Virus record (IMG/VR): IMGVR_UViG_3300042430_000588
Coordinates: 1-23,768 of that record
Length of the DNA stretch: 23,768 bases
Direction: 5' to 3' (one strand)
Source of the DNA: a virus
Shown: positions 57 through 19,520 of the stretch, piece after piece
How the letters are laid out: each line of letters begins with the position of its first letter
Position numbering within the stretch: the stretch's first letter is position 1
The notes under the pieces: model-generated
The model's input: the letters and a program-made list of their open reading frames with translations, nothing else
What the model was told of the DNA's origin: nothing
The model's database searches: none
Made by a program: the position numbers and the translations under genes

Positions 57-94
57 GAAGATCTGACTAGCCGGTTCCTAATAGTAAAAGTTTT

Positions 95-335: not shown

Positions 336-410
336 GGGTGGTTCGTATAACGGATAATACAAAGTGCTTCTACCGCTTGAATAGGGGTTCGATTCCTCTA
401 CTACCCTCCA
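336..410 (+). tRNA. tRNA-Arg (TCT)
   Basis: This is a fully formed cloverleaf. The acceptor GGGTGGT/ACTACCC has seven pairs including one G-U. The D stem is GTAT/ATAC (345-348 and 357-360). The anticodon stem AAGTG/CGCTT holds loop CTTCTAC with anticodon TCT at 369-371. The variable loop is 4 nt, the T arm is AGGGG/CCTCT with loop TTCGATT, and CCA is encoded at 408-410. It would read AGA, a codon favoured in AT-rich phage genes, which is the usual explanation for a phage-borne Arg-TCT tRNA. Confidence 0.93.
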
Positions 411-937: not shown

Positions 938-1093
938 ATGAGTGGTAAAGGAAGCGGTCGCAGGCCGTGTGATGAAGATAAAGTTCGCAGTAACTGGGAC
1001 ACTATCTTCAGTAAGAAAGTAAAAGAAATAGAACAGCTGGAGCTGTTTGATAAAGAAAAGGAAGAAGATGAGTTGCCAAACAAAACTAAGTAA
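938..1093 (+). CDS. Small basic phage protein, 51 aa (GKGSxRRP...NWDxIF type)
   Basis: A short gene with an AAAGGA ribosome site at 928-933 and ATG at 938. The product starts MSGKGSGRRP, continues with an acidic stretch and the segment SNWDTIFSKK, and ends in a charged tail rich in Lys and Glu. The pattern of a basic GKGS-RRP start followed by NWD-IF is one I recall from many small uncharacterised phage proteins, including those of marine and freshwater podoviruses and myoviruses. No function is known to me. Its 3' end overlaps the Dps gene by 26 bases, so it belongs to the same transcript and is probably translationally coupled to it. Confidence 0.75.
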   Translation: MSGKGSGRRPCDEDKVRSNWDTIFSKKVKEIEQLELFDKEKEEDELPNKTK

Positions 1094-1499
1094 CCTTATT
1101 GCAGATAATTTTCTGGCATATTTTAATGCACACGTATATCATTTTAACGTAGTTGGCCCTGACTTTGTTCAGTATCACGATCTGTTCAGTGAGGTGTATG
1201 AGTATTTGTTTGAAAATCATGATACGTTAAGCGAGCAGCTTAGGCAAATGAAGGTTAAAGTTCCCGGTGATCTTAAAGATTATTTAGATAATAGTGTTGT
1301 TTGCCCTTGTGCTAAGGAGTCTGCTGTTAAAGGTATGCTGGTAAATACAAGCAAAGACTTAGATGTTATTCTAACCAGTAGTCAAAAGCTATACGAAGAA
1401 GCAGGTACCGAAGGACATGGTGCCCTTGAAACCTATATTGGAGACTATATGACTGGTGTCTCTAAACTTAAATGGAAGGTAGACTCATGTCTGAGTTAA
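1068..1499 (+). CDS. dps: Dps-like ferritin (DNA-protection / iron-storage protein)
   Basis: The 143-residue product matches the Dps family, whose members form 12-subunit shells that oxidise Fe(II) and limit peroxide damage to DNA. The ferroxidase ligands are present with the spacing of E. coli Dps: His25 (YHFN), His37 (QYHD), Asp52 and Glu56 (HDTLSEQL), matching H51, H63, D78 and E82; the D67 equivalent is Ser41. The start at 1068 is chosen over 1047 because AAGGA (1058-1062) is five bases upstream and the N terminus then begins just before the first helix. The protein is slightly shorter than bacterial Dps (about 160) and lacks a long Lys-rich N-terminal DNA-binding tail. It lies between small early-type genes, overlapping both neighbours. 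A host-derived stress gene is the likely origin. Confidence 0.88.
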   Translation: MSCQTKLSNLIADNFLAYFNAHVYHFNVVGPDFVQYHDLFSEVYEYLFENHDTLSEQLRQMKVKVPGDLKDYLDNSVVCPCAKESAVKGMLVNTSKDLDVILTSSQKLYEEAGTEGHGALETYIGDYMTGVSKLKWKVDSCLS

Positions 1500-1750
1500 A
1501 AAATTATAATATTTTTGCCCTTGAGGGTGATAAACAAACCAATGATATGGAAGTGTGTGAGACTTTAGGTTTAGATCCTAAAGTAGCTTTTACACCTGCC
1601 ATTAATGAAGCTGCTATTAATAAAATGCACAAAGAAAATTACAATGAGTATATTAATCGTGGAGTTTCTGAATTAAAAGCTGCACAACTAGCCGACTCGT
1701 TAGCTGCTACTGCTCGATTAAGAGTTAAACAAGCCTTAAAAGGCCAGTAA
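1487..1750 (+). CDS. Hypothetical protein, 87 aa
   Basis: The ATG at 1487 is preferred over 1472 because a GGAAGG ribosome site (1474-1479) lies just upstream of it. The gene overlaps the end of dps by 13 bases. The product is hydrophilic: the N-terminal half contains LEGDKQTNDMEV, and the C-terminal half is Ala/Leu/Arg/Lys-rich and probably one long helix (about residues 62-85). No recognised domain. It is the last gene before the strong hairpin at 1760-1794, hence the end of the rightward operon. Confidence 0.7.
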   Translation: MSELKNYNIFALEGDKQTNDMEVCETLGLDPKVAFTPAINEAAINKMHKENYNEYINRGVSELKAAQLADSLAATARLRVKQALKGQ

Positions 1751-1759
1751 AAAAAAAAT

Positions 1760-1794
1760 AACCCCTATTAGGAATAATCCTAGTAGGGGTTTTT
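1760..1794. terminator. Bidirectional intrinsic terminator between convergent operons
   Basis: A 12-bp stem (1761-1772 with 1779-1790, one G-U pair, GC-rich at the base: ACCCC/GGGGT) closes a 6-base AATAAT loop. It is followed by a T-run on the + strand and preceded by A's at 1751-1758, which form a T-run on the - strand. It lies between the end of the rightward small genes and the end of the leftward late operon, so it can terminate both. Confidence 0.9.
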
Positions 1795-1800
1795 ATTTGG

Positions 1801-4800
1801 TTAGTATCCGACTAATTTACTTAGCTTAGTAACTTCTTCTTTAATAGAGTTAAATTTATTAATATCAGTATTTCTATCGGCAGGTGATCTGTCAATACTA
1901 CTGTTATTATCTAATAACTTTACTAAGTCTTTAAATGAATTTAAACTTAAGGTATCGTTACCATTAATTTTCTTTAGGTATTTCATAGCACCAGTTATAT
2001 TTGAAATATTAGGGTAAGAGGATTCTAATTGAACATCTCTTGATGTTTTCTCATTGCTTATTTCAAATGCACCTTTTACTTTACCTTTGTTGGGATTCTC
2101 TCTCATCTGAAATGAGGGAATAAACCCAGTACCTGACTCAGGCTTTGGTACATCCATCATAGGTTTGCCAACAATAAAGTCATCTCCAAAAGATTTTTCA
2201 TAAGCAGATACAAAGGATTCATCACGAGCAATATCTTTAGCTTCTTGTTGAGCTTTATAGTTTGAGATATCTGCTTTGGGGTTACCACCGCCGTAAGTCA
2301 TTTGAGCAATTCGGTTAGGACCAGCTGATCTTAATAAGTGCTCAAAAGTTTCTTTAACTGATCTGGGTGCTTCAGAAGCCCACCTAGATAAGTCATTATT
2401 AACACCATCAAGCTTTAGTTCTCTCTTAGCTAAGTTAGCTAGCTGTTTAAACTGGCTAACCTTAACTACTAATTGCTTATGTAACTCGGCTGCTTGTCTA
2501 ATAGAACCGTCTTTACCAATGGTGTTGGTAAACAATGCAGAAGGTTTCCAACCATACTTATTAGCTTCATCTAAAACTTCTTGCATATTTGCTTTACGTT
2601 TCTGCCATTGAGCATCAGTGTAGCCTGATAGATAGTACTGTTCATAACTACCACCGGGCTTTAGCTTGTCAAAAATTTCATCAAAGTAAGCACCCAATGC
2701 AGGGAACTCACCCATCTCACCAATACCTACATAATCATTCATAGAAGCTTTACGCATTACTGCGTCTTCAGCTCGTTTGAGATAGTCATCTAGCATCTTG
2801 GGGAACTTAGAAATATAGTCAACAGAGCTTGGGATAGCTATGTTGTTATAAGCGTTACGGTAAATTAAAGAAGATCCAGCGTTAGAGATAATAGAGTCAT
2901 GTACCCAGGCTGCAGGGTATGGTGCTTTTCTTTCACGACCTTTATTAACAAATAACGTAGTCATCTTAACTAAATCACCGTCTAAAGATTGGATAGGCAT
3001 AACAACCATAAAGCGTTGTTGAGCTGTACCAATAGCATTATCAAAGTAATCGTACTTTTGTTTATATCTGTCAAAGAAAACTTGTTGACCTTTGGTTGCA
3101 GTAGGTTTTAAACCTCTTTGAGTTTGTACAAGATTAAAATCTTGATCGCCGGAACTAATACTTTCAGTCTCATAGTTAGGGGCTCGAATAGCTACCCTGG
3201 AACCGTCTTCTAATGTATGTTCCCACACTACACCGGGATCACCTTTACTAACAACAGGTGTGACACCCGCAGGAGTAAGAATCCAATGGTCACCTGTAGG
3301 TCCGGGGACAATAACACTGGTATTAAGAATAGCAGTATACCGACCAAAACTTTTCAGAATATTAGCATAGTTACTTTGAACAACTTTTCTTAAAGTAGAT
3401 TCTAAGGCTTTAGTTAATTGTTTATTAGCAAAATTACTAGACTCAGAGCCAGTAGAGTCCATCAAGTTCCTACGTAAATCGCCGGGCAAACTATCCATAA
3501 ACTCAGTGACTTGAGCGCCAAACATACTGGCATCTTTACCGTAAGACGTTTGCATTAGAGGGGCTTTCATAAAGTCTTTTGCAACTTTAGCAAGGCCATT
3601 ATCCTTAATTAGCTTATTGAACACACTATCAAAAGCATTAGCTAACTCAGGATTGTCAGTACGCAGATCGTCTAACAAAATTTTCTTTAGCTCTTTGAAA
3701 GCATATTCACGCATGTCAGCTAACTTAGGATTAAACGTACCTAGACGATCTGCGTTTTTAAAGCTACCAAAGAAAAGAGACTGTAAAAAAATACCGTTCT
3801 GATTACCGTCATCAAAGCTGTTATGAGATAAATAAATTGTTTTACCCTTGTTTAGAGGATTAACTATTTCTGCCATATCAGCCCACAAGTTTGTGTTACC
3901 TGTAGCTTCTCCGGGTTCAATAGCCGCCATTAAACCTACAATATTATCATGCTGACCTTCAGGATTTTGTAACCAAGCTTTATATTCATTACCAACATCA
4001 GCTAGTTTACGAGCAATAGCTGGAGTATATCTTTGAATAATATCTGCAGGAGCATACTTAATAATATTAGGCTCAGGGTTAGCCGACACGGCCGTATAAT
4101 AATTAATAGTAGCATTAACCATTGTACCAATAGCAGCTAATTCTTCAGGCTTTAAAGCCAATAAAGCCGCATGCTGTTCTGGACCTGCTTTTTGAAAGAT
4201 CTTAACTGCACGAGCAATAAGCTCTTCAGATTTAGTATCATCGAGAAGCAAGTTAGTGTCTTTGATAAAATCTTTATCAGCAAAAGTAAGCATATCACGA
4301 GTACCTGTTTTGGAACCCATATAGTCTACACCAGCACTTGCCGGGAAGAATCGTTGATTTGCTAAAGCGTGTTTCCACTCACTGTAATTACTACGACCCA
4401 TTAAAGTATTAGCATTTAAAATGTCAAACTGAAGAGCTTTAATTTTAGTGTCAATAACATCTACAGCTTGTTCTACCTGAGCCTCTTTATATTTCTGTAG
4501 TGAACCGGGAACGTTAGCATCAAAGCCTTGATCTGGATCTGTGTTATCGTGTACTGCTTGATAGTCACTCTCACTTACTTTATGTCTTTTAGCGTATACA
4601 GATGTAGACCATTTGATACGACCCTTATCATCTTTAACTGCATTAGCAATAATATCATCTAACCATAACTGTTTGGCTTTAACGTTGTCTGCTAAGAAAG
4701 CAAAGTTCATAGAGCCCATGTAAGTCTTAGTTAGCTCAGCAGCATCAGTCACAATGTCTAAACCCTTAGGTGAGTTTTCAGATACTTGTGGAGTACCCTT

Positions 4801-5970
4801 AATAAAAGATGTGCCACCTGGGTTAGGAGTTCTTGAAGGAAGTCTGTAAGATAATGTTTGACTTACAGCATCTGCCAACCTTTGTAAACCTCTTGCAGCT
4901 TCCTTAGCTTTTGGATTACCAAAGAAATGGATCTTACTAGACTTAGGATCCATGTAAGGAATAATACTACCATCATTAATAGCAGAAGCAACTTGGCCTC
5001 TTGCAATAGTAGATGCCGCTTCTTTACTTAGAGGGATACCACTCTTTTGAGCGTTATCTGAAATAAAGTGATCAACACTGTCTATCAAAGTACTTAACGC
5101 ATTCATATCATCAATAGATGAACCGTTAAGAGATGTGGGTGTATAGCTAGCACTTGCTATACCATCCTGTCTAATTTGATTAAGTGACTGAGACAACGCT
5201 AAACCAGAAAGAGTGGCTAATGGTATACCATACTTTTCAATATAAGGTTGATAGCCTTCTTCGCCTTCTTGATTAACAATAGCAGCAACACCAGCGGGTA
5301 CTTTTTCACCGTTAACCTTAACAGTTGCTGTAGCCTTATCAAAGTCAAACAAGTTATCCATTGCATTGTAAGCTAATTTTTTAAAGTCAGCTTGAGATTG
5401 ATCAGCGTAAGAAGCAATATCCTCTTGGGAACTAAAACCAGAAAGCAATTTACTTTGCTCTCTGGCAGGAGTATTAATAGTAGCTCTTTCAGAAGTTAGA
5501 TTAAGAACACCTTCAATAGCCCCTTGAGTATCTAAAACACCGTTCTCTTGAATATCACCAAAAGCTTCTTGGAAGTTAGGTGCAGCAGCAAGTTGCTGAG
5601 TCTGCTCCATTTGATAATCTTCGGGAGTAAGTTGCCGATATTGCTTTTGACCCATTTCATCTACAATAGGGTTACCATTAGCATCCAACATTACTTCGGC
5701 ACCCGGTACAAATCTAGAACCAGTAGCTCTAGATACATCAGCCATAGAAGCTACAGGTGCTGTGTCTAAAGCCTCGGTTAAGCCACCACGTTTAGGTACA
5801 TCAATATTAAAAACATTAGGTACACTGTTTTGAATAGCTTGGTTAATATCTGAGGCGGGATTAGGCACCTCTGCCTGAGGTACAGTTAAGCCAACATTAC
5901 GGTTAATGTCAGCAAACCTATCTCTTAAAGATAATGGGCCTCCAGAGGAGGTACTTGAGGTAGTAGCCAT
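1801..5970 (-). CDS. Giant late protein with T7-fold single-subunit RNA polymerase motifs (candidate virion RNA polymerase)
   Basis: 1389 aa, last gene of the leftward late operon, with AAGGA eight bases before the ATG. The catalytic signature of T7-type polymerases can be read along it. A motif-A-like segment at 720-730 (DDGNQNGIFLQ) gives Asp721 for T7 D537. Motif B at 798-811 (KDFMKAPLMQTSYG) gives Lys802 and Tyr810, spaced exactly as T7 K631 and Y639. Motif C at 1022-1026 (WVHDS) gives Asp1025 for D812. Upstream, QRFFP (539-543) may be a worn-down form of the DxxGR-V-Y element. The N-terminal ~400 and C-terminal ~300 residues match nothing I know. N4 carries a T7-fold polymerase of about 3500 aa in the virion, also encoded at the end of its late genes; the position after two ejection-type giants suggests the same role here at less than half the size. 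Activity is inferred, not shown: the Arg of motif B is Lys, and the DxxGR Asp and Gly are absent. Confidence 0.72.
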   Translation of the reverse strand: MATTSSTSSGGPLSLRDRFADINRNVGLTVPQAEVPNPASDINQAIQNSVPNVFNIDVPKRGGLTEALDTAPVASMADVSRATGSRFVPGAEVMLDANGNPIVDEMGQKQYRQLTPEDYQMEQTQQLAAAPNFQEAFGDIQENGVLDTQGAIEGVLNLTSERATINTPAREQSKLLSGFSSQEDIASYADQSQADFKKLAYNAMDNLFDFDKATATVKVNGEKVPAGVAAIVNQEGEEGYQPYIEKYGIPLATLSGLALSQSLNQIRQDGIASASYTPTSLNGSSIDDMNALSTLIDSVDHFISDNAQKSGIPLSKEAASTIARGQVASAINDGSIIPYMDPKSSKIHFFGNPKAKEAARGLQRLADAVSQTLSYRLPSRTPNPGGTSFIKGTPQVSENSPKGLDIVTDAAELTKTYMGSMNFAFLADNVKAKQLWLDDIIANAVKDDKGRIKWSTSVYAKRHKVSESDYQAVHDNTDPDQGFDANVPGSLQKYKEAQVEQAVDVIDTKIKALQFDILNANTLMGRSNYSEWKHALANQRFFPASAGVDYMGSKTGTRDMLTFADKDFIKDTNLLLDDTKSEELIARAVKIFQKAGPEQHAALLALKPEELAAIGTMVNATINYYTAVSANPEPNIIKYAPADIIQRYTPAIARKLADVGNEYKAWLQNPEGQHDNIVGLMAAIEPGEATGNTNLWADMAEIVNPLNKGKTIYLSHNSFDDGNQNGIFLQSLFFGSFKNADRLGTFNPKLADMREYAFKELKKILLDDLRTDNPELANAFDSVFNKLIKDNGLAKVAKDFMKAPLMQTSYGKDASMFGAQVTEFMDSLPGDLRRNLMDSTGSESSNFANKQLTKALESTLRKVVQSNYANILKSFGRYTAILNTSVIVPGPTGDHWILTPAGVTPVVSKGDPGVVWEHTLEDGSRVAIRAPNYETESISSGDQDFNLVQTQRGLKPTATKGQQVFFDRYKQKYDYFDNAIGTAQQRFMVVMPIQSLDGDLVKMTTLFVNKGRERKAPYPAAWVHDSIISNAGSSLIYRNAYNNIAIPSSVDYISKFPKMLDDYLKRAEDAVMRKASMNDYVGIGEMGEFPALGAYFDEIFDKLKPGGSYEQYYLSGYTDAQWQKRKANMQEVLDEANKYGWKPSALFTNTIGKDGSIRQAAELHKQLVVKVSQFKQLANLAKRELKLDGVNNDLSRWASEAPRSVKETFEHLLRSAGPNRIAQMTYGGGNPKADISNYKAQQEAKDIARDESFVSAYEKSFGDDFIVGKPMMDVPKPESGTGFIPSFQMRENPNKGKVKGAFEISNEKTSRDVQLESSYPNISNITGAMKYLKKINGNDTLSLNSFKDLVKLLDNNSSIDRSPADRNTDINKFNSIKEEVTKLSKLVGY

Positions 5971-5982
5971 TGTTATTATTCC

Positions 5983-8900
5983 TTACTTAAATTTTGATGA
6001 TGCAACATCAGAGACTATAGGGAAGCTTCCTACAACAGGGGCTGCTCTTACAAGCTGCTTAACTGCTTCGGGTACTTTGTCTTGTGAAAGGTTATAGGCT
6101 GCTGAAATGGGTTTTGAAGCCCAATTAATAGCAGGAGAATTGTCTTTAGCAGTTTCTATTGACCACTTAAAAGGATCTTTAAAAGGTGAAGGTTTATTTT
6201 CAGGATACAAAGGTGATAATGTATCGACTACTCTTTCGTATTGACCTAATAAACCTGACCCATAAATATTACGTTGAATTTCTTTTTTGTAACCTTTAAT
6301 ATAAGGGTTCTTACCGTCTTCATAGGCAAGTTCATCTTTAATAGCATTACCAATCATAGAAGCTAGTATCATACCCATAACAACAGCAAAAGCTTGGTAA
6401 CGCATTCCAACGTTACCGTCTTTAATGTATTGTTTATACAAAGTAGGTAGTAATGTACTATGAGCAGTTGCCATAAAACGAGTCATTGCAGTAATTAAAC
6501 GTAAACGGGGGTCATGGTAAAACCTAGGTAAATTGTGTACTTGAGGGTTAACAACCTTACTGTCAACAAAGTTAGAGATACCTGTATAAATATTATCTAC
6601 AAACGCTTGGTAGTCAGGGTGAATATTACCTTTATCATCTATCATTTCTTTATGATTTCTTCCAAAGATATTTGAATCATTACCTGTATTATGAAGATTA
6701 TCCATAACGTACAGGGTACGATTAACATCAATACCATACTCTACTAAATCTTTAAGGTCATATGCTTGTTGCACAGTTAAACCTTTAGCAGTGTTAAATC
6801 TAGTTTCCCTTTCAACAGCTGGAATGTTTCTTAAGTTATTAAGTTTACCCATAACAGTATCAGCAGCAGCAGATAAAGCGGAGATACGAGTACTATCAGT
6901 TAAAGCTCTTAAACCAATAAGGTGAGCCATAGTGTTCATAGCCTCACGATGTCGGTGATCTGCGTATTCGTATTTAGTTTGAGTAGCATACCCAGAATCT
7001 GAATAACCTAATACATCTAACAACTTACGACCAGTAGTTCTGTATATTAAATTGTTTACTTTATCTTCAAGCTTCTTATACTCTTTAGTATTAGAAGTTT
7101 TGGGGTCTGATGTAGCTAAATTATCCATTTCTTTTTGTAAAGCTTCAAGCTCTTCATTCATTCTGAATGCCGGAGAATTTCTCATATAGGAAATACCACG
7201 GGTACTTAATGCCCAAGAAGTTCCTTTGTTAAGGTCATTACGAATTTCAGTAAACAAGTTACGCACGTTGTCATATAGTTGACCAGTGACTTTATCACCA
7301 CGAGTCCCTAAAATAGCAGCTACTGATTCGGGTAATGAACTAAAAGCAGCTTTACCCAATGAGGATAACATAGCCATAGTAGTACCCCAAGCAACTACAC
7401 CTCTATAAAGCTCATTATCAATTTCTTTATAATTACCGTTAGCAATTAAATAAAAAGCTTTTACCTGAGTAGATACATGTTTAAATTCCTCATCACTATC
7501 AAACTCACCGTTTTCTTTTGCTTTTTGTAATAGCTGAACAAGCTTTTGTCCGTCCTTACCAAAGTATTTATCGTTAGCAACTTTAGATACAGTGTGTTGT
7601 TTTAAATTTCCTAAGTTAGAAAAGAAGCTTGATTTAAATAGGTCAGCTAGTTCTGGATCTTTAATAATTCCTTTTTGTGAAAGAAAATTCTTAGCGTTTT
7701 CTACTAGAGTAGGGTTTTTACCAACAAGTTGATCAATAGTTTTATTAGCTTCCCTACGAGTAACACCTGTAAAAATTAATTTATTAATTAAGCGTTCTTT
7801 GTTTGCAACAATAATATCGGGGTCAATTTGAGAAGCTTCAAATATAGAACTTAGATTATCAAAGAAGCTATCATTAGTCATGTCACTTAAGGCTTGTCTT
7901 AAATTATCAGCATCACGAACAAAGTCATCTAATATTTTATTACCTGACCATTCATTTTTACTCCAATAATTATTGTAAGCATCTTGAATCATGGCTTCTG
8001 TTTCTAATTTACTTTTACCTAAAGCGGTAGACAAGTCATCAGCGTTAGGAAGTAAACTATTTAAAGAACCAATAGTCTTTTGTTTGTATCGAGCGTAGTG
8101 ATCCCCTGATAAAATACCATGACCACCAACAACAGCTTTTAACATAGCTCTATATGGTTTAAATTGACCTTTATCATTAAATAATTTAGGTGCAATCTGA
8201 TGAGACAGTTGACCGTTACCCATTAGCTGAGAAGGTCTTGTAATTAAACTTTTAATAGTGTCCCATGTACCTTTTGTTTCGGGTAAATCAACTGCTTTGT
8301 TTGATTTAAATGTATCATCTGTTTTAAAGTCAGTTGCTTTAGATTCATCAAACAATACATCGTCAATGCTTTTATCTAATCTAACTATTTCACCATCACG
8401 AGTAACTACTTCTTTACGCATTTCAGGCTGTTGACGGGCTAGCTGTGCTTCAGACAACATGCCCTTAAATTCTTCTTGGCTATTAGCAGCTGAATGCCAC
8501 TGCATTGCATCTAACGCAGCAAAAGAACTACCTAAAGAAACACCCATTACCTTACCACCAACAGCAGCATCTATAATATTGTTCCAAAAATCTTTTTCGT
8601 ATTGGATATCTGTATTCCATACCCCACGAGTAGCCATCATCTCAGCGTACTGTTGAGCACTCTCAGTAAATGCTTCCCCAAGACCCTTACCTTCAACAGA
8701 AGCAATACCTCTTAAAGCTGCTTCAGCAGATCTGTATTGTTGATTAGCAAATTTACTACCAAGCTCTGTTAAGGATACTAACTCTTTCTTAGTACTTTCT
8801 TCTAAAAGTTTTTTAGCTTCAGGCATAGTCATACGCTTACTAAGTTCTTTTAATGCAGCTTCTTTACCTGCCATAGTAAACAAGTTACCACCAACCATAC

Positions 8901-10146
8901 CTTCAAGACCTAGCTTGTCAAATACAGTAGCTGATAAACCTAAAGCCGATGCTAATGATGCATTCTTTTTGTCTTCAGGCTGATCAGCATAAAATTTACC
9001 AATGTACATAGGAGAAGCTAAAACAGTAGACGCAGCAAAACCAGCTACACCAGTTAACCCAGCTAAGCCTACTGCGCCACCTGTTGCAACTAATACCGCT
9101 AATTGAGGTACAGTACCTGCAATAAGGTTACCTACATAAGTAGCTGTATCTTGGATAGCACTCCAAGAATCATTAGTATTAATATCTTTATAACTAGATA
9201 AGGTTTGAGGTAATGATCTTTGTTCTGCTTTTAATTCACGAGTTTTAGCTCTAGAAATGTCTGATAAATATTCCCATTTAGTAGTGTCACCAACCATTTC
9301 ACCCATACCTGAAAACAACTTCATTAAGTCTAAAGAAGAATTCTTAATAGTTGTTGCTATTTGAGCCTTAGCCTTGTTAAGACGAGTTCTATCTGGATTC
9401 CTTACGGCAGTGCCCTCAACATAATCAGGTAACACAGAAGAAATAAACAGATCTCTTTTTTGTTCTTCTATTTGTGCCTTAAACTTTTCTTTTAAATCAG
9501 GACGAATAGAGGGGTCATTAATTAAACTTTCTAATCGGGTGATCTCATCTACAATAGCCGCCTGAGCTTTAGGGCCAACTAAGTTTTTAAAAGCAGCTAA
9601 TTCAGCTTCATCAAACGCGTTTTGTTTGGCCTCAAATAAAGACTTACCATAAGACCTTACTTCAGCTATATTCTCTTGTTTACGCTTAGCTGCTAAGTTA
9701 AGCATGGGATCCACAAAAGCTGCATCAGGGAACAAAGTACTTGCCGCAGCAGTGGACATACGATCTCGTACAACTTCTGGCGCTGTGTTATAACCCATCC
9801 GTTGTAAACCTAAAGTAACTAAAGTGTTACCTAAGTCACGGCCCTCAGGTGTTTCCTGTGTAGCTAATGTTCTACCGTAATAATCTTTACCTTCTGTTTT
9901 TAAGTTAGTAAAACCACCCATACGGGCTACAGCAGCAGCATCTTCTTCGGATGTATCTGAAAGAATAGCATCAGGAGTAAATACACCTTTACGGTCTTTA
10001 GCCGTTTCGGGTGCATTAAAGTTTTTAACACGATACTTTTCACCGTTTAATCCGGTTAAGGTATCTGCATCATATTGCTCTAAAGGTGTTTCTACGGGCT
10101 TACCGTTGATAGTTTTAATAGGGTACTTGTCGTTTAATAAGTCCAT
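5983..10146 (-). CDS. Giant internal/ejection protein with N-terminal staphylococcal-nuclease-like domain
   Basis: 1387 aa. Residues ~15-118 read as an SNase fold: DADTL (26-30), YRVKNFNAPE (38-47) and DYYGRTLA (88-95), followed by a GRDLGNTLVTLGLQ segment. Compared with Staphylococcus nuclease, Asp28, Arg39, Glu47 and Arg92 match D21, R35, E43 and R87, while Asn44 replaces D40, one of the calcium ligands. Long charged helical regions follow, then hydrophobic stretches at about 337-382, 530-547, 918-946 and 1252-1268 that could insert into membranes, as in T7 gp15/gp16-type ejection proteins. AAGGAG lies five bases before the ATG. It sits between the transglycosylase giant and the polymerase-like giant with gaps of 12-13 bases. 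Likely a virion protein that enters the host; the nuclease may act in the periplasm or on host DNA, or be only structural. Confidence 0.75.
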   Translation of the reverse strand: MDLLNDKYPIKTINGKPVETPLEQYDADTLTGLNGEKYRVKNFNAPETAKDRKGVFTPDAILSDTSEEDAAAVARMGGFTNLKTEGKDYYGRTLATQETPEGRDLGNTLVTLGLQRMGYNTAPEVVRDRMSTAAASTLFPDAAFVDPMLNLAAKRKQENIAEVRSYGKSLFEAKQNAFDEAELAAFKNLVGPKAQAAIVDEITRLESLINDPSIRPDLKEKFKAQIEEQKRDLFISSVLPDYVEGTAVRNPDRTRLNKAKAQIATTIKNSSLDLMKLFSGMGEMVGDTTKWEYLSDISRAKTRELKAEQRSLPQTLSSYKDINTNDSWSAIQDTATYVGNLIAGTVPQLAVLVATGGAVGLAGLTGVAGFAASTVLASPMYIGKFYADQPEDKKNASLASALGLSATVFDKLGLEGMVGGNLFTMAGKEAALKELSKRMTMPEAKKLLEESTKKELVSLTELGSKFANQQYRSAEAALRGIASVEGKGLGEAFTESAQQYAEMMATRGVWNTDIQYEKDFWNNIIDAAVGGKVMGVSLGSSFAALDAMQWHSAANSQEEFKGMLSEAQLARQQPEMRKEVVTRDGEIVRLDKSIDDVLFDESKATDFKTDDTFKSNKAVDLPETKGTWDTIKSLITRPSQLMGNGQLSHQIAPKLFNDKGQFKPYRAMLKAVVGGHGILSGDHYARYKQKTIGSLNSLLPNADDLSTALGKSKLETEAMIQDAYNNYWSKNEWSGNKILDDFVRDADNLRQALSDMTNDSFFDNLSSIFEASQIDPDIIVANKERLINKLIFTGVTRREANKTIDQLVGKNPTLVENAKNFLSQKGIIKDPELADLFKSSFFSNLGNLKQHTVSKVANDKYFGKDGQKLVQLLQKAKENGEFDSDEEFKHVSTQVKAFYLIANGNYKEIDNELYRGVVAWGTTMAMLSSLGKAAFSSLPESVAAILGTRGDKVTGQLYDNVRNLFTEIRNDLNKGTSWALSTRGISYMRNSPAFRMNEELEALQKEMDNLATSDPKTSNTKEYKKLEDKVNNLIYRTTGRKLLDVLGYSDSGYATQTKYEYADHRHREAMNTMAHLIGLRALTDSTRISALSAAADTVMGKLNNLRNIPAVERETRFNTAKGLTVQQAYDLKDLVEYGIDVNRTLYVMDNLHNTGNDSNIFGRNHKEMIDDKGNIHPDYQAFVDNIYTGISNFVDSKVVNPQVHNLPRFYHDPRLRLITAMTRFMATAHSTLLPTLYKQYIKDGNVGMRYQAFAVVMGMILASMIGNAIKDELAYEDGKNPYIKGYKKEIQRNIYGSGLLGQYERVVDTLSPLYPENKPSPFKDPFKWSIETAKDNSPAINWASKPISAAYNLSQDKVPEAVKQLVRAAPVVGSFPIVSDVASSKFK

Positions 10147-10159: not shown

Positions 10160-13100
10160 TTAAGGTTTTTGTTTTCCACCGTCTGCAATCCATTTAATAA
10201 ATGAAGATTCTTTAGCTCCGTAAGAGTCTTCATAGAACTTACGAATAGCTTTGTATTCAGGTGATTTCCATTTGTTAGAGTAATCTTTAATTAGTTCTGA
10301 TTTAGCTTTTACTTTAGCACCACTACTTAATTGATTGTTAACTCTGCTATCTAGTACTGAGCTTAACTGTGTTAAGTTTTCGGCTGAAGGTAATTTACCT
10401 TCTTTAGAAGCAAACAATTCACGGTTAGTTGCAGATAAAGTATATAGAGCAGAAGCTTCAATTAAGGCTGGTAATTGGTTAATGTCAGTTTTAGAATCAG
10501 CTTGATATTGGAAAGCTGTTCTTAAAATCTGATTAGCCTGTTTAGAATCCATAACTCCCATATTACGCATAGCAACAACAGCGTCTCGGCTTGACCTTTC
10601 AGCTAGAGCTTTAGCTTCAGCTTCCGAATAATTTTTACCTCTAAGTGCTCTTAACTTTTCTTGAAGAACAGGTAGGGCCATTACTGTAGCATCTTTTTCT
10701 ACATCACGGTCAATCTCTTGTTGAATCTTAAGCGGAGTAGGTCTGTAATTAGGTTTAAACCATTTACCACTGACGTCATCATACAGTTGCATATTATCAG
10801 AATCTGAACCTATAAACTTACTTTGATAAACTTTACCATTATAAAAGTGGTAGTCTTCATTTACCTTAGAAGCAGCTGGATCACGTTTAACTGCATAAGT
10901 ATTTAATTGCTGCAATAATTGAGATGTGTATTCTGCACGTTGAGCATCATTCTTTAAGGTAGGTAGTACCTCATTTAATTTTGCGCGAGCTTGATTTCTA
11001 ATGGGTTGATCAATTTCAGAATCACCAAAGGCTTTAGCTAAAGCAGAAGTATTAGACTCAAATCTTTCACGATCATTTTTAAGAGCTTCATAAGTACGAG
11101 TATCTTTAGCTTTTACATCTGCTCTTTTTTCAGCGTCTAAACGGCTGGCTTCTTGCATTGCTGCTTGGGTTAACAACGATTTATCTTGTCTTGCGTTTTG
11201 AGCATCAATAGTTTTCTGTTGTCTCTCAGCAGCAATACGCTCACGGTTTCTTGCATCAGACTGCATTAATGCGTCTCTTGAAGCATATCTCAAAGAACCA
11301 GCAGCAGAGCCACCAGTAAGCATACCGCCAGCAGCAGTAATAGCAAATCTAATTAGGTCACCTTGATTAAAAATACCTTTATCACCGTATATCTTTTCAA
11401 TTAAAGTTGCAGCTTCTTGCTGTTTAACTTCAGGAGTAGCATTAGAAGCTTTAATAGCAGTAATTAATTTGTCAAGGTTAGTGCTCTCCTGTTTGGCAAC
11501 AGTAGCAATAGCATCATTTGCTGCTTTAGGGTTTGAATCAAGCATAGAAACAGAAGAAGTTTCAAATACAGGAATTGGTGGTTGACCTTGGAATTCAGTA
11601 GGAGTGCCAACCTCTACCGCAGCAGGTTGTGATTTATCAGGATTAATTGGTGTTGGAGTAATAGTAGAACTATCACGACCAATACCTACTGACCGCTTTA
11701 AATGACCTTCAGCCCAATCAATATAATCTTGATTAGTTTTAAATTTAGCGTATACAGGGTTTTGTTTGATAATTAAATCAGCATTTCCTTTACGGGAGCT
11801 TTGATCTAAAGTTTCTCTAAAGTCACCTTGTAGATTAGATAATACTCTGGCACCATCACCTGAACCAAGACCATGCATTACGTATCTGTTAACATTAGTT
11901 AATGGAATACGTTGCTTATTTAGTACAGCTTCATTCTGTTTATTAGTATGCTCAAAAGCCATACGTTGTGCTTCATCAGTGTAAAACTCTTTAGATCCAT
12001 ACTGAACACCGGCTAACTCCGGTACTTGCTTACGGATGCTGTTCCATGTACCCTCTGTAAATTGAACTGGTCCAGATGCAGAAGATAAAGGATTCTTAGC
12101 TGTGTTTTTATTACCTGACTCTGCGCCTTTAAATAAAGTGTAAGCGTCAATAGCTTCAATATCATTAATAGGTTTATAAGTAGTTGTTTGGTTAGCAGGT
12201 ACAGCAACTACAACAGGTGCTACAGGTACATTAGCCGCTTGTAATCTTGGAGCATATTGGTCTAAAGGTACAACAGGAGCTACATTACCCATGCGATTAA
12301 AGCCGGGTACTGGTTTTGCTACAGGTGCTTTATCTTTTACTGCATCATAGGCATCTGCACGAGCATTCTGAATTCCAGGATCAGAACTTGCAACCTGTAC
12401 TGCAGGATAATCTACCTGAGGCACTTCTAAATTAACATCTAATGGCCCATAACCTGTGTCACCGTACATAGCATTAGTAGTACCATCAAAATAACCAGCA
12501 GCTTGTTGTACTTGTTGAGGAACTTCTGTAGTACCGTTGTTATAATTAGCTTGTGGTGCAGATCCACGGTTAAATGAAGGAATACCAACAGTACCGTCTA
12601 CAAATGCAGAACCGGGAACATCAGGATGTTCGTAAGCTAATGACGGTACAACCTGTGTGGTACCTTGTGAATGGTATTTGGCTTGACCGGGTGCATCTGA
12701 GTAGCGTACATCTACAGTACCATCTCTTAGTGCGTTCTTTTCACGACCTTCTTCAACCAGCTTTTTAATAATAGCTTTGTTCTTAGGGTTCTGAGCAGCT
12801 GGTTCTGGAATAACAGCCTCACCGGGTGTAAGCATAGCAGGTACAGTATCGGTACCTTGTGCGTATAGTTTCTTTTGACCCTGACCTAATACTCCAGTAT
12901 CAGCCAAAGGATTTTGAGTAGGTATACCTAATTTTTGTCTATTCATTCTAGGTGCTTTACCTAGTGGAGAACCTAACTCTTTTAACTTAGCTACATGAAG
13001 GTCTTCTTTATGACCAATACCTTGGTTAGCCTTTGCAGCAGCTTCTTTGAGCTTAATTTGATGCAGTTGTTCTTTACGTTTTTGTTCTGCTTGCATCTTA

Positions 13101-13177
13101 GCTACTTCTCTTTGTTCTTGGGATTGTAGCTTAAGATACTCGCGATGCTGCTTGGCAGACATAGATAGTGGTCCCAT
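10160..13177 (-). CDS. Internal virion protein with lytic transglycosylase-like domain
   Basis: 1005 aa. Residues ~1-65 are strongly charged with many Lys, Glu and Gln and are probably coiled coil. Residues 105-122 carry GTDTVPAMLTPGEAVIP, a motif seen in many phage tail proteins, followed by GT-containing repeats to residue 235. A lysozyme/SLT-like domain spans ~340-450: AESGNKNTAKNPLSSASG gives catalytic Glu353, then GPVQFTEGTW, a later NVNRYVMHGLGSGDG and an Ala/Leu segment. Such domains cut peptidoglycan locally during DNA ejection (compare T7 gp16). Residues ~600-1005 are mostly helical. AAGGAG precedes the ATG by five bases, the same AAGGAGTC pattern as the next giant gene. An alternative start is Met6. 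Confidence 0.82.
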   Translation of the reverse strand: MGPLSMSAKQHREYLKLQSQEQREVAKMQAEQKRKEQLHQIKLKEAAAKANQGIGHKEDLHVAKLKELGSPLGKAPRMNRQKLGIPTQNPLADTGVLGQGQKKLYAQGTDTVPAMLTPGEAVIPEPAAQNPKNKAIIKKLVEEGREKNALRDGTVDVRYSDAPGQAKYHSQGTTQVVPSLAYEHPDVPGSAFVDGTVGIPSFNRGSAPQANYNNGTTEVPQQVQQAAGYFDGTTNAMYGDTGYGPLDVNLEVPQVDYPAVQVASSDPGIQNARADAYDAVKDKAPVAKPVPGFNRMGNVAPVVPLDQYAPRLQAANVPVAPVVVAVPANQTTTYKPINDIEAIDAYTLFKGAESGNKNTAKNPLSSASGPVQFTEGTWNSIRKQVPELAGVQYGSKEFYTDEAQRMAFEHTNKQNEAVLNKQRIPLTNVNRYVMHGLGSGDGARVLSNLQGDFRETLDQSSRKGNADLIIKQNPVYAKFKTNQDYIDWAEGHLKRSVGIGRDSSTITPTPINPDKSQPAAVEVGTPTEFQGQPPIPVFETSSVSMLDSNPKAANDAIATVAKQESTNLDKLITAIKASNATPEVKQQEAATLIEKIYGDKGIFNQGDLIRFAITAAGGMLTGGSAAGSLRYASRDALMQSDARNRERIAAERQQKTIDAQNARQDKSLLTQAAMQEASRLDAEKRADVKAKDTRTYEALKNDRERFESNTSALAKAFGDSEIDQPIRNQARAKLNEVLPTLKNDAQRAEYTSQLLQQLNTYAVKRDPAASKVNEDYHFYNGKVYQSKFIGSDSDNMQLYDDVSGKWFKPNYRPTPLKIQQEIDRDVEKDATVMALPVLQEKLRALRGKNYSEAEAKALAERSSRDAVVAMRNMGVMDSKQANQILRTAFQYQADSKTDINQLPALIEASALYTLSATNRELFASKEGKLPSAENLTQLSSVLDSRVNNQLSSGAKVKAKSELIKDYSNKWKSPEYKAIRKFYEDSYGAKESSFIKWIADGGKQKP
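12473..12865 (-). repeat. Degenerate GT[T/V]x(V)P peptide repeats within the transglycosylase protein
   Basis: Six short related units lie at residues 105-235 of the 1005-aa protein: YAQGTDTVP, RDGTVDV, SQGTTQVVP, VDGTVGIP, NNGTTEVP and FDGTTNA. Their GT dipeptides are at residues 108, 153, 172, 195, 215 and 232, so the last five recur every 17-23 residues. The DNA has diverged, so the repeat is visible mainly in the protein. Confidence 0.6.
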
Positions 13178-13186: not shown

Positions 13187-13720
13187 TTAAAAAATTCCTA
13201 ATTTCTTTGCCAGTAAACCAGCACCTATTGCCCAACCTACTGGTCCCATGGCGGCTAATGCGGTTTCACCACCTAATGCGGCCCCTGCTCCGGCGGCTGT
13301 AGCCCCTGCACCACCTGCAGCTGCAGTTGTTCCTGCTGCAGTTAATGGTGCTGTAATAGAACCAACAGTTGCACCAGCACCTGTTAACGCAGCATCTTGT
13401 GCGGCAAGCATAGCTGCTTGGGATCCAGCCCCTGTTAAAGCACCGGTACCTAAGTTATAAGTAGCTGCAGCAGCTTCTGGGGCCACACCTAAGGGTGCAG
13501 CACTAGCAACTGCTTTGCCTAACTGATAACCCTTATAACCAGCTTCTAAACCTTTTGCAGTAGCATTTACAGCACCTAATGCGGCCATTTGCATTAATGG
13601 GTCATTAGGTTGTTGCATTGGTGGTGGGGTTTGTTCTTGTAAAGCTTGAATATTAGCTGACAAAGGTGCTACGGGTTTTTGTTCGTTAACCCATGACCAA
13701 GGATCGTTTTCGTTATACAT
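13187..13720 (-). CDS. Ala/Gly-rich internal virion protein, 177 aa
   Basis: The N terminus is hydrophilic (MYNENDPWSWVNEQKP) and rich in Pro and Gln to about residue 45. The rest is almost entirely Ala, Gly, Thr and Leu, ending in MGPVGWAIGAGLLAKKLGIF, a likely membrane-active helix with a basic end. This composition fits small ejection proteins such as T7 gp14, which insert into the host envelope. GGAGGA precedes the ATG by five bases, and TAATG overlaps the stop of the previous gene by one base. Sequence too low in complexity for a family call; the structural role is inferred from position. Confidence 0.7.
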   Translation of the reverse strand: MYNENDPWSWVNEQKPVAPLSANIQALQEQTPPPMQQPNDPLMQMAALGAVNATAKGLEAGYKGYQLGKAVASAAPLGVAPEAAAATYNLGTGALTGAGSQAAMLAAQDAALTGAGATVGSITAPLTAAGTTAAAGGAGATAAGAGAALGGETALAAMGPVGWAIGAGLLAKKLGIF

Positions 13721-14129: not shown

Positions 14130-14792
14130 TTATTTACCCCCTGATGTAGCTTGCTGTCTTGCAGGATTACCATAAATAGTGCTTGCATAACGCTGTAAAC
14201 CCTGCCATGTTGCGTCTAGACCTTGTTGATCAATACCACGTTGTTGGTTACCTAAGTTGGCTAACGATGAAGTAGTTTTATCTGCAACGTTAAATTGCCC
14301 GGTAGAAGCTTCGTTCATCTGCTTTTCAGCATTTATTTTATTATTAATAACTTGTTGAGCGTACTTGGCTTTGGCAGCGGAATCTGCAGCAGAAGTAGCT
14401 AAAGCATGTCTGGTAGAACCGAGTACCCCTGTAGAGCCAAATTGGTTGTTTAAATTTGCAGTAGACATTCCAATATCTAACTTAAGAGCATCTTGCAATT
14501 CATTGGCACCGCCTGTATTGGCCAGTGTGCTCATTCTCTTTTGAGTATCATCTAGGCTTTTTATAGCATTAGCGGCCCTATTTACTGTGGCATCAGATCC
14601 CATACCAAAAGCCTTTTGTTGTAATTGAGAAGCACCAGCTACTTTACCTAACTCCCCGGCAGCATAAGCAGATTCAGTTGCGTTACCTACGTTTTTAAGA
14701 TAAGGTTGTGCCCACTCAGGAATAGTAGATACTGTACCTCCACCTCCACCACTATAGTTCTTCTTAATAGAACTTCTTTTATTAAATCTCAT
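14130..14792 (-). CDS. Putative internal/structural virion protein, 220 aa
   Basis: It has a basic start (MRFNKRSSIKKNYSGGGGG), then a largely helical protein rich in Ala, Gln and Asn with few hydrophobic runs. The segment FGSTGVLGSTRHALATSAAD (residues ~119-138) resembles a GxLGSSR-type motif that I recall from T7 gp14-like and other phage internal proteins. Its start overlaps the gp13-like gene in an ATGA arrangement, with AAAGGA upstream. Together with the two following small genes it occupies the position of T7 gene 14. Assignment by context; the sequence alone is not decisive. Confidence 0.65.
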   Translation of the reverse strand: MRFNKRSSIKKNYSGGGGGTVSTIPEWAQPYLKNVGNATESAYAAGELGKVAGASQLQQKAFGMGSDATVNRAANAIKSLDDTQKRMSTLANTGGANELQDALKLDIGMSTANLNNQFGSTGVLGSTRHALATSAADSAAKAKYAQQVINNKINAEKQMNEASTGQFNVADKTTSSLANLGNQQRGIDQQGLDATWQGLQRYASTIYGNPARQQATSGGK

Positions 14793-17331: not shown

Positions 17332-18858
17332 TTACCTCCGATCTGCTGGTCTTGCGTCTAATGCAAATGTAGCCATACGCCAATAACCTGTTGAAGAAAT
17401 TCTGTAGTTAAGTACTCGACCGTTTACTCTTGGATCTACTTTATAACCTTGTGCTTTTTGATTATTAGGCAAGAAGGTAAATAAATCATTTGAAGTAAAT
17501 GTTACTGTGTCAACAAAGTTGTTTTGACCTAATACCGAGATACTTATATTAGCATCAGAAGGTACCTTATCAAACACAGGATAAATAGAGCTAATTAAAG
17601 AACTACCAGTTGTATCACCGGTATTTAATTTAAGTTTTTCAATATAAGAAGTAAAGGTAGTTAGTGCAGAACCGTTCCACATTAAATAATTAGCATCTGT
17701 CTTTAAGGTCTGTGTACTGTTAGTTGCCATGTAAATAATTTCTTTACCATATTGGAAGGCATTACTCTCATTAGCTGGTCCTGTGAAAGAGTAATTAATA
17801 TTTGGTAATACTCTTTTAGTCCATGTTTTATTTTTATAATTATAAATAAGAGCTTCATTACAAACAGTAGATGCACCTTTAGGGTAGTTAATCCATATTT
17901 CTTTATAAAAGGAATTCTTAACTAAGTGTACTTTATCAATAGCATTTTGATTTAAGTTGTTAAAGAAATATTTTTTAATTCTGAAGTCAGCTAAAGACTG
18001 AATACTACCAGAACCATTGTGAATATAAATATCATTACGATCAACAACAAAGTGATTACCATCAAACTCACATACACAATCTGTGCTTAAGATACCATAT
18101 GATTTAGAGTATGCAGCTACTCTTGTTTGCGCACCAATAGTTAATATATTAATACTATCAGAAGAATAAACAAACATGTTACCCCTGAGTTCCATCATAT
18201 CTAATACAGGTGAGGTAGAGCTTAATTCAAACTCGTCAGCTGTGTCTGTTGTTAAACCCGGTTGCCATATTGTAGGAATAGCGCCTGTAGCTGCCTGAAC
18301 GGATACTCTAATAGTTCCCGGAGCAGATGTGGTAATGCCACTTTGTACTAAGGTAAGGTTGGCTGCAACTAATGAATAATTAAGTGACCGAATAACTTTA
18401 GCTGTTACTGTTAGCCCTGCTACATAATTCCAATTAGGTAATGGTTGAAATGTGTTACCTGCTACAGGATCGTTATATAAACAATATAGTGGAGTTGATT
18501 TACTGTTATTTAGGATAACAGCATAACCACCGTTAAAATAAGTACCTTGCCAATCACTGTTAGTATAACCAGCACCTGAACCACTAAACATGGTAGACTG
18601 GTTACCCGCCGAATCTACTCGGATAATACTACCATCTTGTGCAAAGATATTATAACCTTGATCTGGTCGTCTCCAGTGAATACCGTATGTAGGTGTAATA
18701 GATAATACTCTGGAAGTTGTCTCACCTGTTATAGTCTGTACTGCGTTGTCGTCAAACCGTACATTGAGAACATCTGTAAAAGTATTCATAGGTACGATCA
18801 TTGGTGGCAAATCAGTGTTTAATCCACCTTCTCCAAGACCTTGTATTTGTTCTGCCAT
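17332..18858 (-). CDS. Tail tube/hub protein, beta-propeller-like (T7 gp12 / P22 gp10 analogue)
   Basis: 508 aa from the ATG at 18858. The frame stays open two codons further to a TTG, but AGGAG at 18867-18871 is eight bases from this ATG. The product is rich in beta strands, with repeated short hydrophobic/aromatic segments (FDGNHFVVDRNDIYIH, FYKEIWINYP, ALIYNYKNKTWTKR) recalling the blades of podovirus tail hub and nozzle proteins. The start (GGLNTDLPP, then LNVRFDDNAVQTITGE) is typical of these proteins. It is the first gene of the tail/ejection group after the gap at 18859-19064. Family assignment by pattern and position only. Confidence 0.68.
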   Translation of the reverse strand: MAEQIQGLGEGGLNTDLPPMIVPMNTFTDVLNVRFDDNAVQTITGETTSRVLSITPTYGIHWRRPDQGYNIFAQDGSIIRVDSAGNQSTMFSGSGAGYTNSDWQGTYFNGGYAVILNNSKSTPLYCLYNDPVAGNTFQPLPNWNYVAGLTVTAKVIRSLNYSLVAANLTLVQSGITTSAPGTIRVSVQAATGAIPTIWQPGLTTDTADEFELSSTSPVLDMMELRGNMFVYSSDSINILTIGAQTRVAAYSKSYGILSTDCVCEFDGNHFVVDRNDIYIHNGSGSIQSLADFRIKKYFFNNLNQNAIDKVHLVKNSFYKEIWINYPKGASTVCNEALIYNYKNKTWTKRVLPNINYSFTGPANESNAFQYGKEIIYMATNSTQTLKTDANYLMWNGSALTTFTSYIEKLKLNTGDTTGSSLISSIYPVFDKVPSDANISISVLGQNNFVDTVTFTSNDLFTFLPNNQKAQGYKVDPRVNGRVLNYRISSTGYWRMATFALDARPADRR

Positions 18859-19013
18859 GTACAATTCTCCTCTTTAAATTTTTCTTTAATAAATACCCTT
18901 ACCAATTGACCAACAATATTATCTACTGTAAATTGTACAATAGGAATTTCAATATTATGTTTCTCACAGATCTTACGGAATTCAATAATGTTAGACCCGT
19001 TATTAATATCATT
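18819..19013 (-). pseudogene. Possible gene remnant: open frame without a start codon
   Basis: On the - strand 64 codons stay open with protein-like composition (segments NIIEFRKICEKHNIEIPIVQ and VDNIVGQLVRVFIKEKF). A TGA closes the frame upstream and no ATG or GTG lies near its beginning. Its last ~12 codons overlap the tail-tube gene out of frame. Immediately upstream a second frame reads AKEHNIE, resembling EKHNIE in the main frame, which suggests a frameshift or duplication. I do not recognise the family; chance coding-like sequence in AT-rich DNA is possible. Confidence 0.3.
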
Positions 19014-19039
19014 TCAATGTTATGTTCTTTTGCTTAATC

Positions 19040-19068
19040 CTAATAGGTACCGCCTAAGCGATAGTTAA
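19040..19068 (-). promoter_or_regulatory. Candidate sigma70-type promoter for the tail/ejection operon
   Basis: Read on the - strand, TTAACT (19063-19068) and TATTAG (19040-19045) match the -35 and -10 consensus at four of six positions each and are exactly 17 bases apart. The stretch from here to the tail-tube gene is the only sizeable non-coding gap in the leftward genes. It would let tail and ejection genes be expressed apart from the lysis genes. A phage-specific promoter is equally possible. Confidence 0.35.
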
Positions 19069-19520
19069 TTTTTTCGGCACTCAATAAGAGACTGTTTTAA
19101 TACCTCTGCTAGTTGAGCCTGCCTGATAAGAAATTCTGCATCTTCTCTAAAAAGTTGTTGTCCAGTGCTTCCATTTCCAGTGCAGATAATGGGATCAGCT
19201 TTTGTGTTTGTATTACTATCTGGGGTTCTTTCGGGGCGGTTCCGCAAGCTGTTAAGAGTAGCAGTGTACTTACGATTAAGATCAAAGATTTGTTCTTCTT
19301 TTTCTTTTCTGAATTTAAATTGTTCATTATTTAATCTTTCAATTTCTTTATTATAATCAGAGAGTTTACTATTTAAATCTTTAAGTTCTTTATTATGTTT
19401 TTCTAACATTTTAGTTTTAATAACGCCTACTTTAATTTCACCTTTGTTATGCCCATAATCATAAGCAAAGAAACAAAACAAAATACAGGAAAGTACATAA
19501 GCAATAATATATTTAACCAT
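19065..19520 (-). CDS. Rz: Rz-like i-spanin (inner-membrane lysis subunit)
   Basis: 151 aa: a short Lys, then a transmembrane segment at about 4-20 (YIIAYVLSCILFCFFAY), a long charged coiled coil (about 25-95), and a C-terminal domain with GQQLFREDAEFLIRQAQLAE, the usual end of Rz proteins in many proteobacterial phages. I-spanins span the periplasm and join Rz1 to disrupt the outer membrane after the endolysin has cut the wall. The ATG overlaps the lysozyme stop by 8 bases (ATGGTTAA). A second gene, Rz1, is embedded in another frame. Confidence 0.88.
   Translation of the reverse strand: MVKYIIAYVLSCILFCFFAYDYGHNKGEIKVGVIKTKMLEKHNKELKDLNSKLSDYNKEIERLNNEQFKFRKEKEEQIFDLNRKYTATLNSLRNRPERTPDSNTNTKADPIICTGNGSTGQQLFREDAEFLIRQAQLAEVLKQSLIECRKN
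19109..19327 (-). CDS. Rz1: Rz1-like o-spanin lipoprotein, embedded in Rz
   Basis: 72 aa, entirely inside Rz in a different reading frame, as in phage lambda and many others. It has a Lys-rich N terminus (SEKKKKNKS), a hydrophobic signal (LILIVSTLLLL) and a lipobox LTAC with Cys28 as lipidation site. The mature part is short and contains KEPQIV and IPLSALEMEALDN, typical of o-spanins. It would sit in the inner leaflet of the outer membrane and bind Rz. The ribosome site is weak (GAAAGA upstream), common for nested Rz1 genes. Confidence 0.87.
   Translation of the reverse strand: MNNLNSEKKKKNKSLILIVSTLLLLTACGTAPKEPQIVIQTQKLIPLSALEMEALDNNFLEKMQNFLSGRLN

Follow-up and report, generated by a model that had tools for sequence, protein, structure and literature searches.

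What does the long open reading frame at one end of this phage fragment encode, and is its product, as originally predicted from motifs and gene position, a virion RNA polymerase (RNAP) of a distinct class? The window (the whole 23,768-nucleotide stretch analysed here, from IMG/VR record IMGVR_UViG_3300042430_000588) contains an uninterrupted frame on the minus strand, a strand that the prediction had left unnamed; it starts with ATG, while stops occur throughout the plus strand across 1801-5970. Nine minus-strand genes run from 18864 to 1801 with spacings of -4 to +13 bp, the tail protein gene being the first of this transcription unit and the putative polymerase gene the last, and a bidirectional hairpin terminator lies just past the stop codon of the latter. 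Both features agree with the prediction that the gene closes the late operon, and the two giant ejection-type proteins said to precede it were indeed found in the same unit (Table 1). The order tail, ejection proteins, polymerase was conserved in the seven genomes or fragments compared. So were the immediate neighbours: a homologue of the adjacent ejection-type protein, which is hydrophobic over residues 341-377 and 1251-1270, occupies the same position in 7/7 of these, and a homologue of the small convergent gene adjoins the polymerase gene in 7/7.

Table 1. Coordinates of features in the window, with predicted or proposed identities and the basis for each.
Feature	Position	Strand	Details
Phage-type promoter candidate TAGCCGGTTCCTAATAGT	68..85	+	Upstream of plus-strand block (tRNA-Arg, Dps, small genes)
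Small conserved gene	1472..1750	+	92 aa; convergent with polymerase gene; end of replication-side operon
Bidirectional intrinsic terminator	1760..1791	.	14-bp stem, T run on both strands; between convergent late and replication-side operons
Proposed compact virion-type single-subunit RNA polymerase	1801..5970	-	1389 aa, 0 Cys; translation, conservation, AlphaFold with Foldseek/VIA-align, profile alignments
Predicted motifs in 1801..5970 product			DxxGR-type Arg R540 with K554, R558; motif A D721; motif B K802..Y810; Q994/D997; motif C H1024-D1025
Giant ejection-type protein	5983..10146	-	1387 aa, 0 Cys; CRP-7 gp34 homologue
Ejection-type protein, transglycosylase domain (residues 348-583)	10160..13177	-	1005 aa, 0 Cys; phrog_4067 E 1.3e-14; synteny
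Small Ala/Gly-rich virion-block protein	13187..13720	-	177 aa, 0 Cys; homologues at this position in 3 further genomes compared
Virion-block protein	14130..14792	-	220 aa, 0 Cys; conserved upstream of ejection proteins
Virion structural/tail protein	17332..18864	-	510 aa; phrog_3287 E 5.5e-55; operon spacing
Phage-type promoter candidate TAGGCGGTACCTATTAGG	19039..19056	-	Upstream of tail/ejection/polymerase unit

Relatives of the protein were not readily found. Scans of viral and genome contigs with the single protein returned none, and it was a two-sequence alignment with gp33 of Roseobacter phage CRP-7 (MK613349), the only cultured relative and annotated as a hypothetical protein, that then revealed the family. 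Its 39 complete relatives span 1196-1474 residues, and scans of 84,980 bacterial and archaeal genomes turned up no member. The family represents a widespread but almost uncultured phage group related to the marine phage CRP-7, which infects RCA roseobacters, bacteria abundant in the sea.

The residues on which the polymerase assignment was originally based, D721-G-N-Q-N-G726-I, K798-D-F-M-K802, Y810-G811 and H1024-D1025-S1026, are all present at the predicted positions, and their conservation in the family places them beyond chance. Among 44 aligned members, with identities down to about 17%, D721 and Y810 are each found in 44/44 and D1025 in 43/43. Position 1024 is His in 41 members and Tyr in two, and position 802 is Lys in 34 and Arg in 10 (Lys or Arg in 44/44). 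Four further residues absent from the initial list, R540, K554, R558 and D997, are conserved in 43/43. In the CRP-7 clade Arg replaces K802 and Ala replaces G722, substitutions that could mean altered catalysis there.

Searches of Pfam, PHROGs and the PDB with the sequence of the window protein gave no matches, nor did a 29-row HMMER family profile match anything in the PDB; PF00940 is absent from the window and from the 29 members searched, and the family goes unseen by any Pfam RNAP or PHROG model. Only profile-profile and structure comparison revealed the remote kinship. An AlphaFold model of residues 190-1389 (pLDDT 77.7, pTM 0.74) was submitted to Foldseek, where the 50 matches listed were without exception RNAPs of mitochondria or T7, the best at E 3e-13. 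With VIA-align, 524 residues superposed on T7 RNAP at Z 25.3 and 712 residues on the N4 mini-vRNAP at Z 18.6. Modelling of a relative from the CRP-7 clade led to the same result (Z 21.4 and 17.1, respectively). The main structural check proposed at the outset was passed, the predicted structure having the right-hand, T7-type fold of single-subunit RNAPs. The profile match to such enzymes that had also been sought is present by hhalign, and it aligns the catalytic residues with their counterparts in T7 RNAP as well as in N4 vRNAP. The family scored P 2.6e-5 against N4 vRNAP (2.6e-6 with the roles swapped) and P 9.7e-6 against a profile of T7-like plus partner RNAPs (0.0035 for T7-like alone). 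For comparison, 18 unrelated protein families from the same phages gave P values of at least 0.2 and the reversed family profile P 0.47. In these profile alignments, made from sequence alone, R540, D721, K802, Y810, D997, H1024 and D1025 pair with R425, D537, K631, Y639, D787, H811 and D812 of T7 RNAP and with R424, D559, K670, Y678, D929, F950 and D951 of N4 vRNAP. The motif-block bootstrap for N4-type versus T7-type placement was 0.35. By computation, then, the modelled product of the gene has the fold and catalytic register of the T7/N4 single-subunit RNA polymerase superfamily; that it synthesises RNA is an inference.

The relatives commonly have another RNAP. A T7-like enzyme is encoded near the polymerase gene at 32 loci (29 distinct records); in most relatives this second RNAP, a single chain of 732-829 residues, is encoded in the replication module, on the other strand and a few kb farther downstream. 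PF00940 matched once each, elsewhere, in seven of the eight larger relatives' records, and the relatives' genomes encode their own DNA polymerase and primase. The window being a fragment, any second RNAP of its own is outside view, and we infer that the genome carries one beyond the left edge. It had been suggested that a virion role would be refuted if the genome also encoded a conventional T7-like RNAP and the present protein were missing from virions. The first half of this is met in relatives, yet it fits such a role rather than refuting it, because N4 also has a second RNAP.

Cysteine is entirely lacking from the 3781 residues of the polymerase and its two giant ejection-type neighbours, as it is from each of N4 gp50, gp51 and gp52. 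Some relatives of the polymerase have one or two Cys residues, and the second RNAP of the relatives has 9-16.

The promoter candidate TAGGCGGTACCTATTAGG differs by one mismatch from the family consensus TAGNCGGTACCTAATAGG, which is matched twice in the window against 0.08 expected and is also found upstream of the tail/ejection/polymerase unit in relatives. Which polymerase uses the conserved TAGTCGGTACCTAATAGG motif can only be inferred, but its T7-like form and its occurrence at many operons, late ones included, fit the second RNAP better than a virion enzyme. The early promoters of N4 vRNAP are hairpins with a 3-base loop. No conserved N4-style hairpins were seen in the intergenic DNA of six genomes and the window, although short or imperfect ones could escape. 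That none were seen was counted against a virion RNAP, as were the lack of virion proteomics or transcription data, the missing giant flanking regions of N4, the CRP-7-clade substitutions and the second RNAP being out of view in this fragment.

Fold and motifs indicate a polymerase, not its packaging, and an active single-subunit RNAP that is made late but stays unpackaged, working in the cell on late transcription beside the T7-like enzyme, has to be considered. Late expression is compatible with both roles, and a phage-type promoter does lie upstream of late units. We nevertheless think this unlikely: the protein lacks Cys, like the two giant ejection proteins encoded ahead of it and unlike the Cys-containing second RNAP; the gene order is kept in all seven genomes or fragments; and a polymerase that is itself the final product of the late unit would appear too late to drive that unit.

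Two other identities question catalysis or its substrate. A descendant of an RNAP that is now catalytically dead, and purely a structural or ejection protein, might be read from the K802R and G722A changes of the CRP-7 clade, the strong sequence divergence and the want of a Pfam RNAP match; it seems very improbable to us, as both metal-binding aspartates, Y810, R540, K554, R558 and D997 are invariant in 43-44 members despite that divergence, and a dead enzyme would hardly be expected to retain them. A family A DNA polymerase or primase sharing the common palm fold finds support only in weak matches of four members to PF00476 (DNA_pol_A; best E 0.0019) and is scarcely credible in view of the RNAP-like motif A (D-G-x-x-N-G), a motif C of H-D-S/A and a motif B ending in Y-G, of PDB matches listed by Foldseek and VIA-align that are all RNAPs, over 500-700 residues, and of the separate DNA polymerase and primase that these genomes already encode.

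We consider it very probable, instead, that the protein is a late-made RNAP that is packaged, injected and used to start early transcription; packaging, injection, RNA synthesis and early-gene targets are all inferred. Such a virion role fits the late position, the ejection-protein neighbours, the lack of Cys and the second T7-like RNAP in relatives. The enzyme would be made late, from the block of tail and ejection genes, be packaged into the capsid together with the two giant ejection proteins and reach the cell with the phage DNA. There it would transcribe the earliest phage genes, among them the replication module encoding the separate T7-like RNAP, which may then transcribe the remaining genes from phage-type promoters. 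The forecast of a distinct class is borne out to the extent that the family constitutes a class of virion-type RNA polymerase that is both new and compact, with packaging and injection again inferential. It is likely, though with somewhat less assurance, that this is a second class of virion-packaged single-subunit RNAP outside the Schitoviridae: compact, stand-alone, of 1.2-1.5 kaa and paired with a one-chain T7-like RNAP.

If this is true, packaging or injection would require neither the giant N4 chain nor its protease, and the compact enzyme may be similar to the ancestor of N4 vRNAP. As a stand-alone enzyme it would allow what transcription requires to be told apart from what packaging and injection require, and it would be much simpler to express and study than the 3500-residue N4 protein. 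It would also explain how infection starts in a phage group known almost only from uncultured members, CRP-7 being the one cultured phage in which the idea can be examined. Annotation is corrected for family genes that are now 'hypothetical' or unmatched.

Among known systems, N4 gp50 (Schitoviridae) shares with the present family the single-subunit RNAP fold with catalytic residues in register, a K-x-P-L..Y-G motif B, an H-D-A motif C in some Schitoviridae, the absence of Cys seen in the window protein, a gene that is the last of the ejection unit and convergent with the replication side, and a second RNAP in the genome. However, gp50 is 3500 residues long, more than twice the size of the window protein, with giant N- and C-terminal regions around its RNAP domain that the family does not have, and its HExxH metallopeptidase motif (HELVH at 2228) occurs in neither the window protein nor any aligned relative. 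The partner RNAP is the gp15/gp16 heterodimer in N4 and a single chain in the relatives. In a 2017 survey, virion RNAPs of the N4 kind were confined to N4-like phages and prophages and nearly always came fused with a metallopeptidase (PMC5512222).

T7 RNAP (gp1, Autographiviridae) is similar in fold and catalytic residues, but the window protein is some 500 residues longer, Cys-free and without a PF00940 match. T7-type enzymes are encoded with early or replication genes, whereas here the gene ends the tail/ejection unit and relatives have a separate T7-like RNAP. The virion RNAP of phage P23-45 is fused to the tape measure protein and transcribes pre-early genes, including that of a second RNAP (PMC10770324); it is virion-borne, as proposed here, but is a homologue of cellular RNAP, not of the T7 kind. 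The CRP-7 paper did not recognise gp33 as a polymerase (PMC6918029). This family member is about 25% identical to the window protein and has Arg, not Lys, at the motif B position, and CRP-7 has the same gene order, a second RNAP (gp30) and the same tRNA-Arg(TCT) (PMC6918029).

Searches of Pfam, PHROGs and the PDB with the polymerase sequence gave no match. The motifs that the original prediction had read in this protein (motif A at D721, motif B from K798 through K802 to Y810, motif C at H1024-D1025) were all found at those residues. In an AlphaFold model of residues 190-1389 (pLDDT 77.7, pTM 0.74) D721 ends a β-strand, H1024-D1025 lies at a β-hairpin turn and a long helix ends in K802-Y810, positions as expected of palm and fingers. 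The anticipated resemblance to known single-subunit RNA polymerases (RNAPs) was borne out by Foldseek against the PDB, where all 50 matches listed were mitochondrial or T7 RNAPs (best E 3e-13), and by VIA-align, which gave Z values of 25.3 against T7 RNAP (524 residues, 4.8 Å) and 18.6 against the apo N4 mini-virion RNAP (712 residues, 7.8 Å). Matches among viral models include T7-like RNAPs and annotated virion RNAPs (vRNAPs). A second model, of a relative from the CRP-7 clade (pLDDT 69.3), yielded Z values of 21.4 and 17.1 against the same two enzymes. With hhalign the family matched T7-like RNAPs at P 9.7e-6 across 563 columns and N4 vRNAPs at P 2.6e-5, compared with P values of at least 0.2 for 18 unrelated control families from the same phages; these profiles, built from sequence alone, agree with the structure comparison on RNAP identity. 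The protein is a single-subunit RNA polymerase, RNA synthesis being untested, and meets all testable features of that superfamily.

D721 and Y810 are invariant in 44 aligned family sequences and D1025 in 43 of 43, as are R540, K554, R558 and D997; position 802 is occupied by Lys (34) or Arg (10) and position 1024 by His (41) or Tyr (2). In profile alignments R540, D721, K798, K802, Y810, D997, H1024 and D1025 pair, respectively, with R425, D537, R627, K631, Y639, D787, H811 and D812 of T7 and with R424, D559, R666, K670, Y678, D929, F950 and D951 of N4, a residue map that is, on these alignments, exact for the catalytic residues. K554 and R558 pair with N4 K437 and R440, which were shown at the initiating nucleotide (PMC4496689). 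The CRP-7 clade (gp33 of CRP-7, L036 and related loci) has Arg at the motif B Lys position (T7 K631), an unusual substitution among single-subunit RNAPs.

The sole tblastn match among 50,697 phage records was gp33 of Roseobacter phage CRP-7, the only cultured relative (1235 aa, annotated as hypothetical; pairwise E 2e-14), and the adjoining 1387-aa protein matches CRP-7 gp34. An alignment of polymerase and gp33 used as query found 34 IMG/VR loci, with more from later scans; scanning 84,980 genomes of bacteria and archaea yielded no family member. The 39 complete relatives of a non-redundant set span 1196-1474 aa.

Nine minus-strand genes, spaced by -4 to +13 bp, end with the polymerase gene, which is directly followed by a bidirectional terminator; five large relatives and CRP-7 share the gene order at the locus. 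The 1387-aa and 1005-aa neighbours have hydrophobic segments and a transglycosylase domain, respectively, traits that fit ejection proteins by analogy with T7 gp14-16 and N4 gp51-52. These two and the polymerase contain no Cys in 3781 residues; thirteen other window proteins contain 31 in 3028. CRP-7 gp33-35 and N4 gp50-52 likewise have none, a mark used by other authors for virion RNAPs (PMC10747016). The polymerase looks like a virion enzyme, in the absence of virion proteomics or activity data.

Features of the polymerase locus in the window
Feature	Position	Strand	Remarks
Phage-type promoter motif	68-85	+	motif search
tRNA-Arg(TCT)	336-410	+	
Dps/ferritin-like protein	1047-1499	+	PF00210, E 9e-10
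Polymerase	1801-5970	-	1389 aa
Ejection-type protein, 1387 aa	gene just before polymerase gene	-	hydrophobic segments
Ejection-type protein, 1005 aa	before 1387-aa gene	-	transglycosylase domain
Phage-type promoter motif	19039-19056	-	upstream of unit ending with polymerase
Rz-like spanin gene	19065-19520	-	
Lipoprotein, Rz1-like	19109-19327	-	lipobox LLTAC; nested in Rz-like gene, different frame
Phage lysozyme	19513-19971		next to Rz-like spanin gene

Most polymerase loci with sufficient flank also encode a T7-like RNAP (732-829 aa, 9-16 Cys), its gene being part of the replication module and lying downstream of the polymerase gene on the other strand; PF00940 is matched once each in seven of the eight larger records. 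In CRP-7 this second enzyme is gp30, its annotated RNAP. N4 follows the same plan, a virion RNAP plus a second enzyme (PMC4496689). The replication side of the window breaks off after 1.75 kb, and since the second RNAP gene of G004, a related genome, ends about 5.6 kb past the end of the polymerase gene, its counterpart here would fall off the left edge. The window (23,768 bases) stops a few hundred bases past the convergent tRNA/Dps block and so holds only a partial genome; those of relatives are about 58-64 kb. Its tRNA is the same single tRNA as reported for CRP-7. Of five large uncultured relatives that were mapped, four also have the conserved Dps/ferritin-like gene close to that of the polymerase. 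CRP-7 carries ribonucleotide reductase genes gp44 and gp46, with another ORF between, within its late block (35552-38170, minus strand); uncultured relatives, unlike CRP-7, have one ribonucleotide reductase-like gene adjoining that of the second RNAP.

The motif TAGTCGGTACCTAATAGG is common to the relatives, upstream of operons on both strands, and takes the form TATAGTCCNNTATTAAAAGG in CRP-7, where it also lies immediately upstream of gp30. Two matches occur in the window against 0.08 expected. The motif resembles a promoter of the T7 type; its probable, though not settled, owner is the second RNAP. The phage-type promoter motif TAGNCGGTACCTAATAGG is conserved in several uncultured relatives, on both strands, that of CRP-7 having diverged. 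Intergenic DNA of six genomes and the window showed no conserved N4-type hairpin promoters; short or imperfect ones could escape.

A survey found N4-like virion RNAPs confined to N4-like phages and prophages (PMC5512222), the T7-like enzyme is the only RNAP reported for CRP-7 (PMC6918029), and our searches of openly licensed papers turned up no description of a similar compact virion RNAP. For the vRNAPs proposed in StenR_269 and Zobellviridae, the only grounds are protein size, helical content and the absence of Cys (PMC10747016). The present proposal of a compact virion-type RNAP, made without virion proteomics or activity data, rests on fold, motifs and conservation.

Whether the family is nearer the N4 or the T7 type is not settled by sequence: a bootstrap across motif columns was indecisive (0.35), and, as in the family, K-x-P-L..Y-G serves as motif B and H-D-A as motif C in some Schitoviridae vRNAPs. 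In the strict sense the polymerase is not of the gp50 type: N4's giant chain and HExxH metallopeptidase motif are absent, as is a heterodimeric partner of the gp15/gp16 kind. It is like gp50 in position, composition and partner RNAP and, with packaging and activity inferred, may by that analogy work like it.
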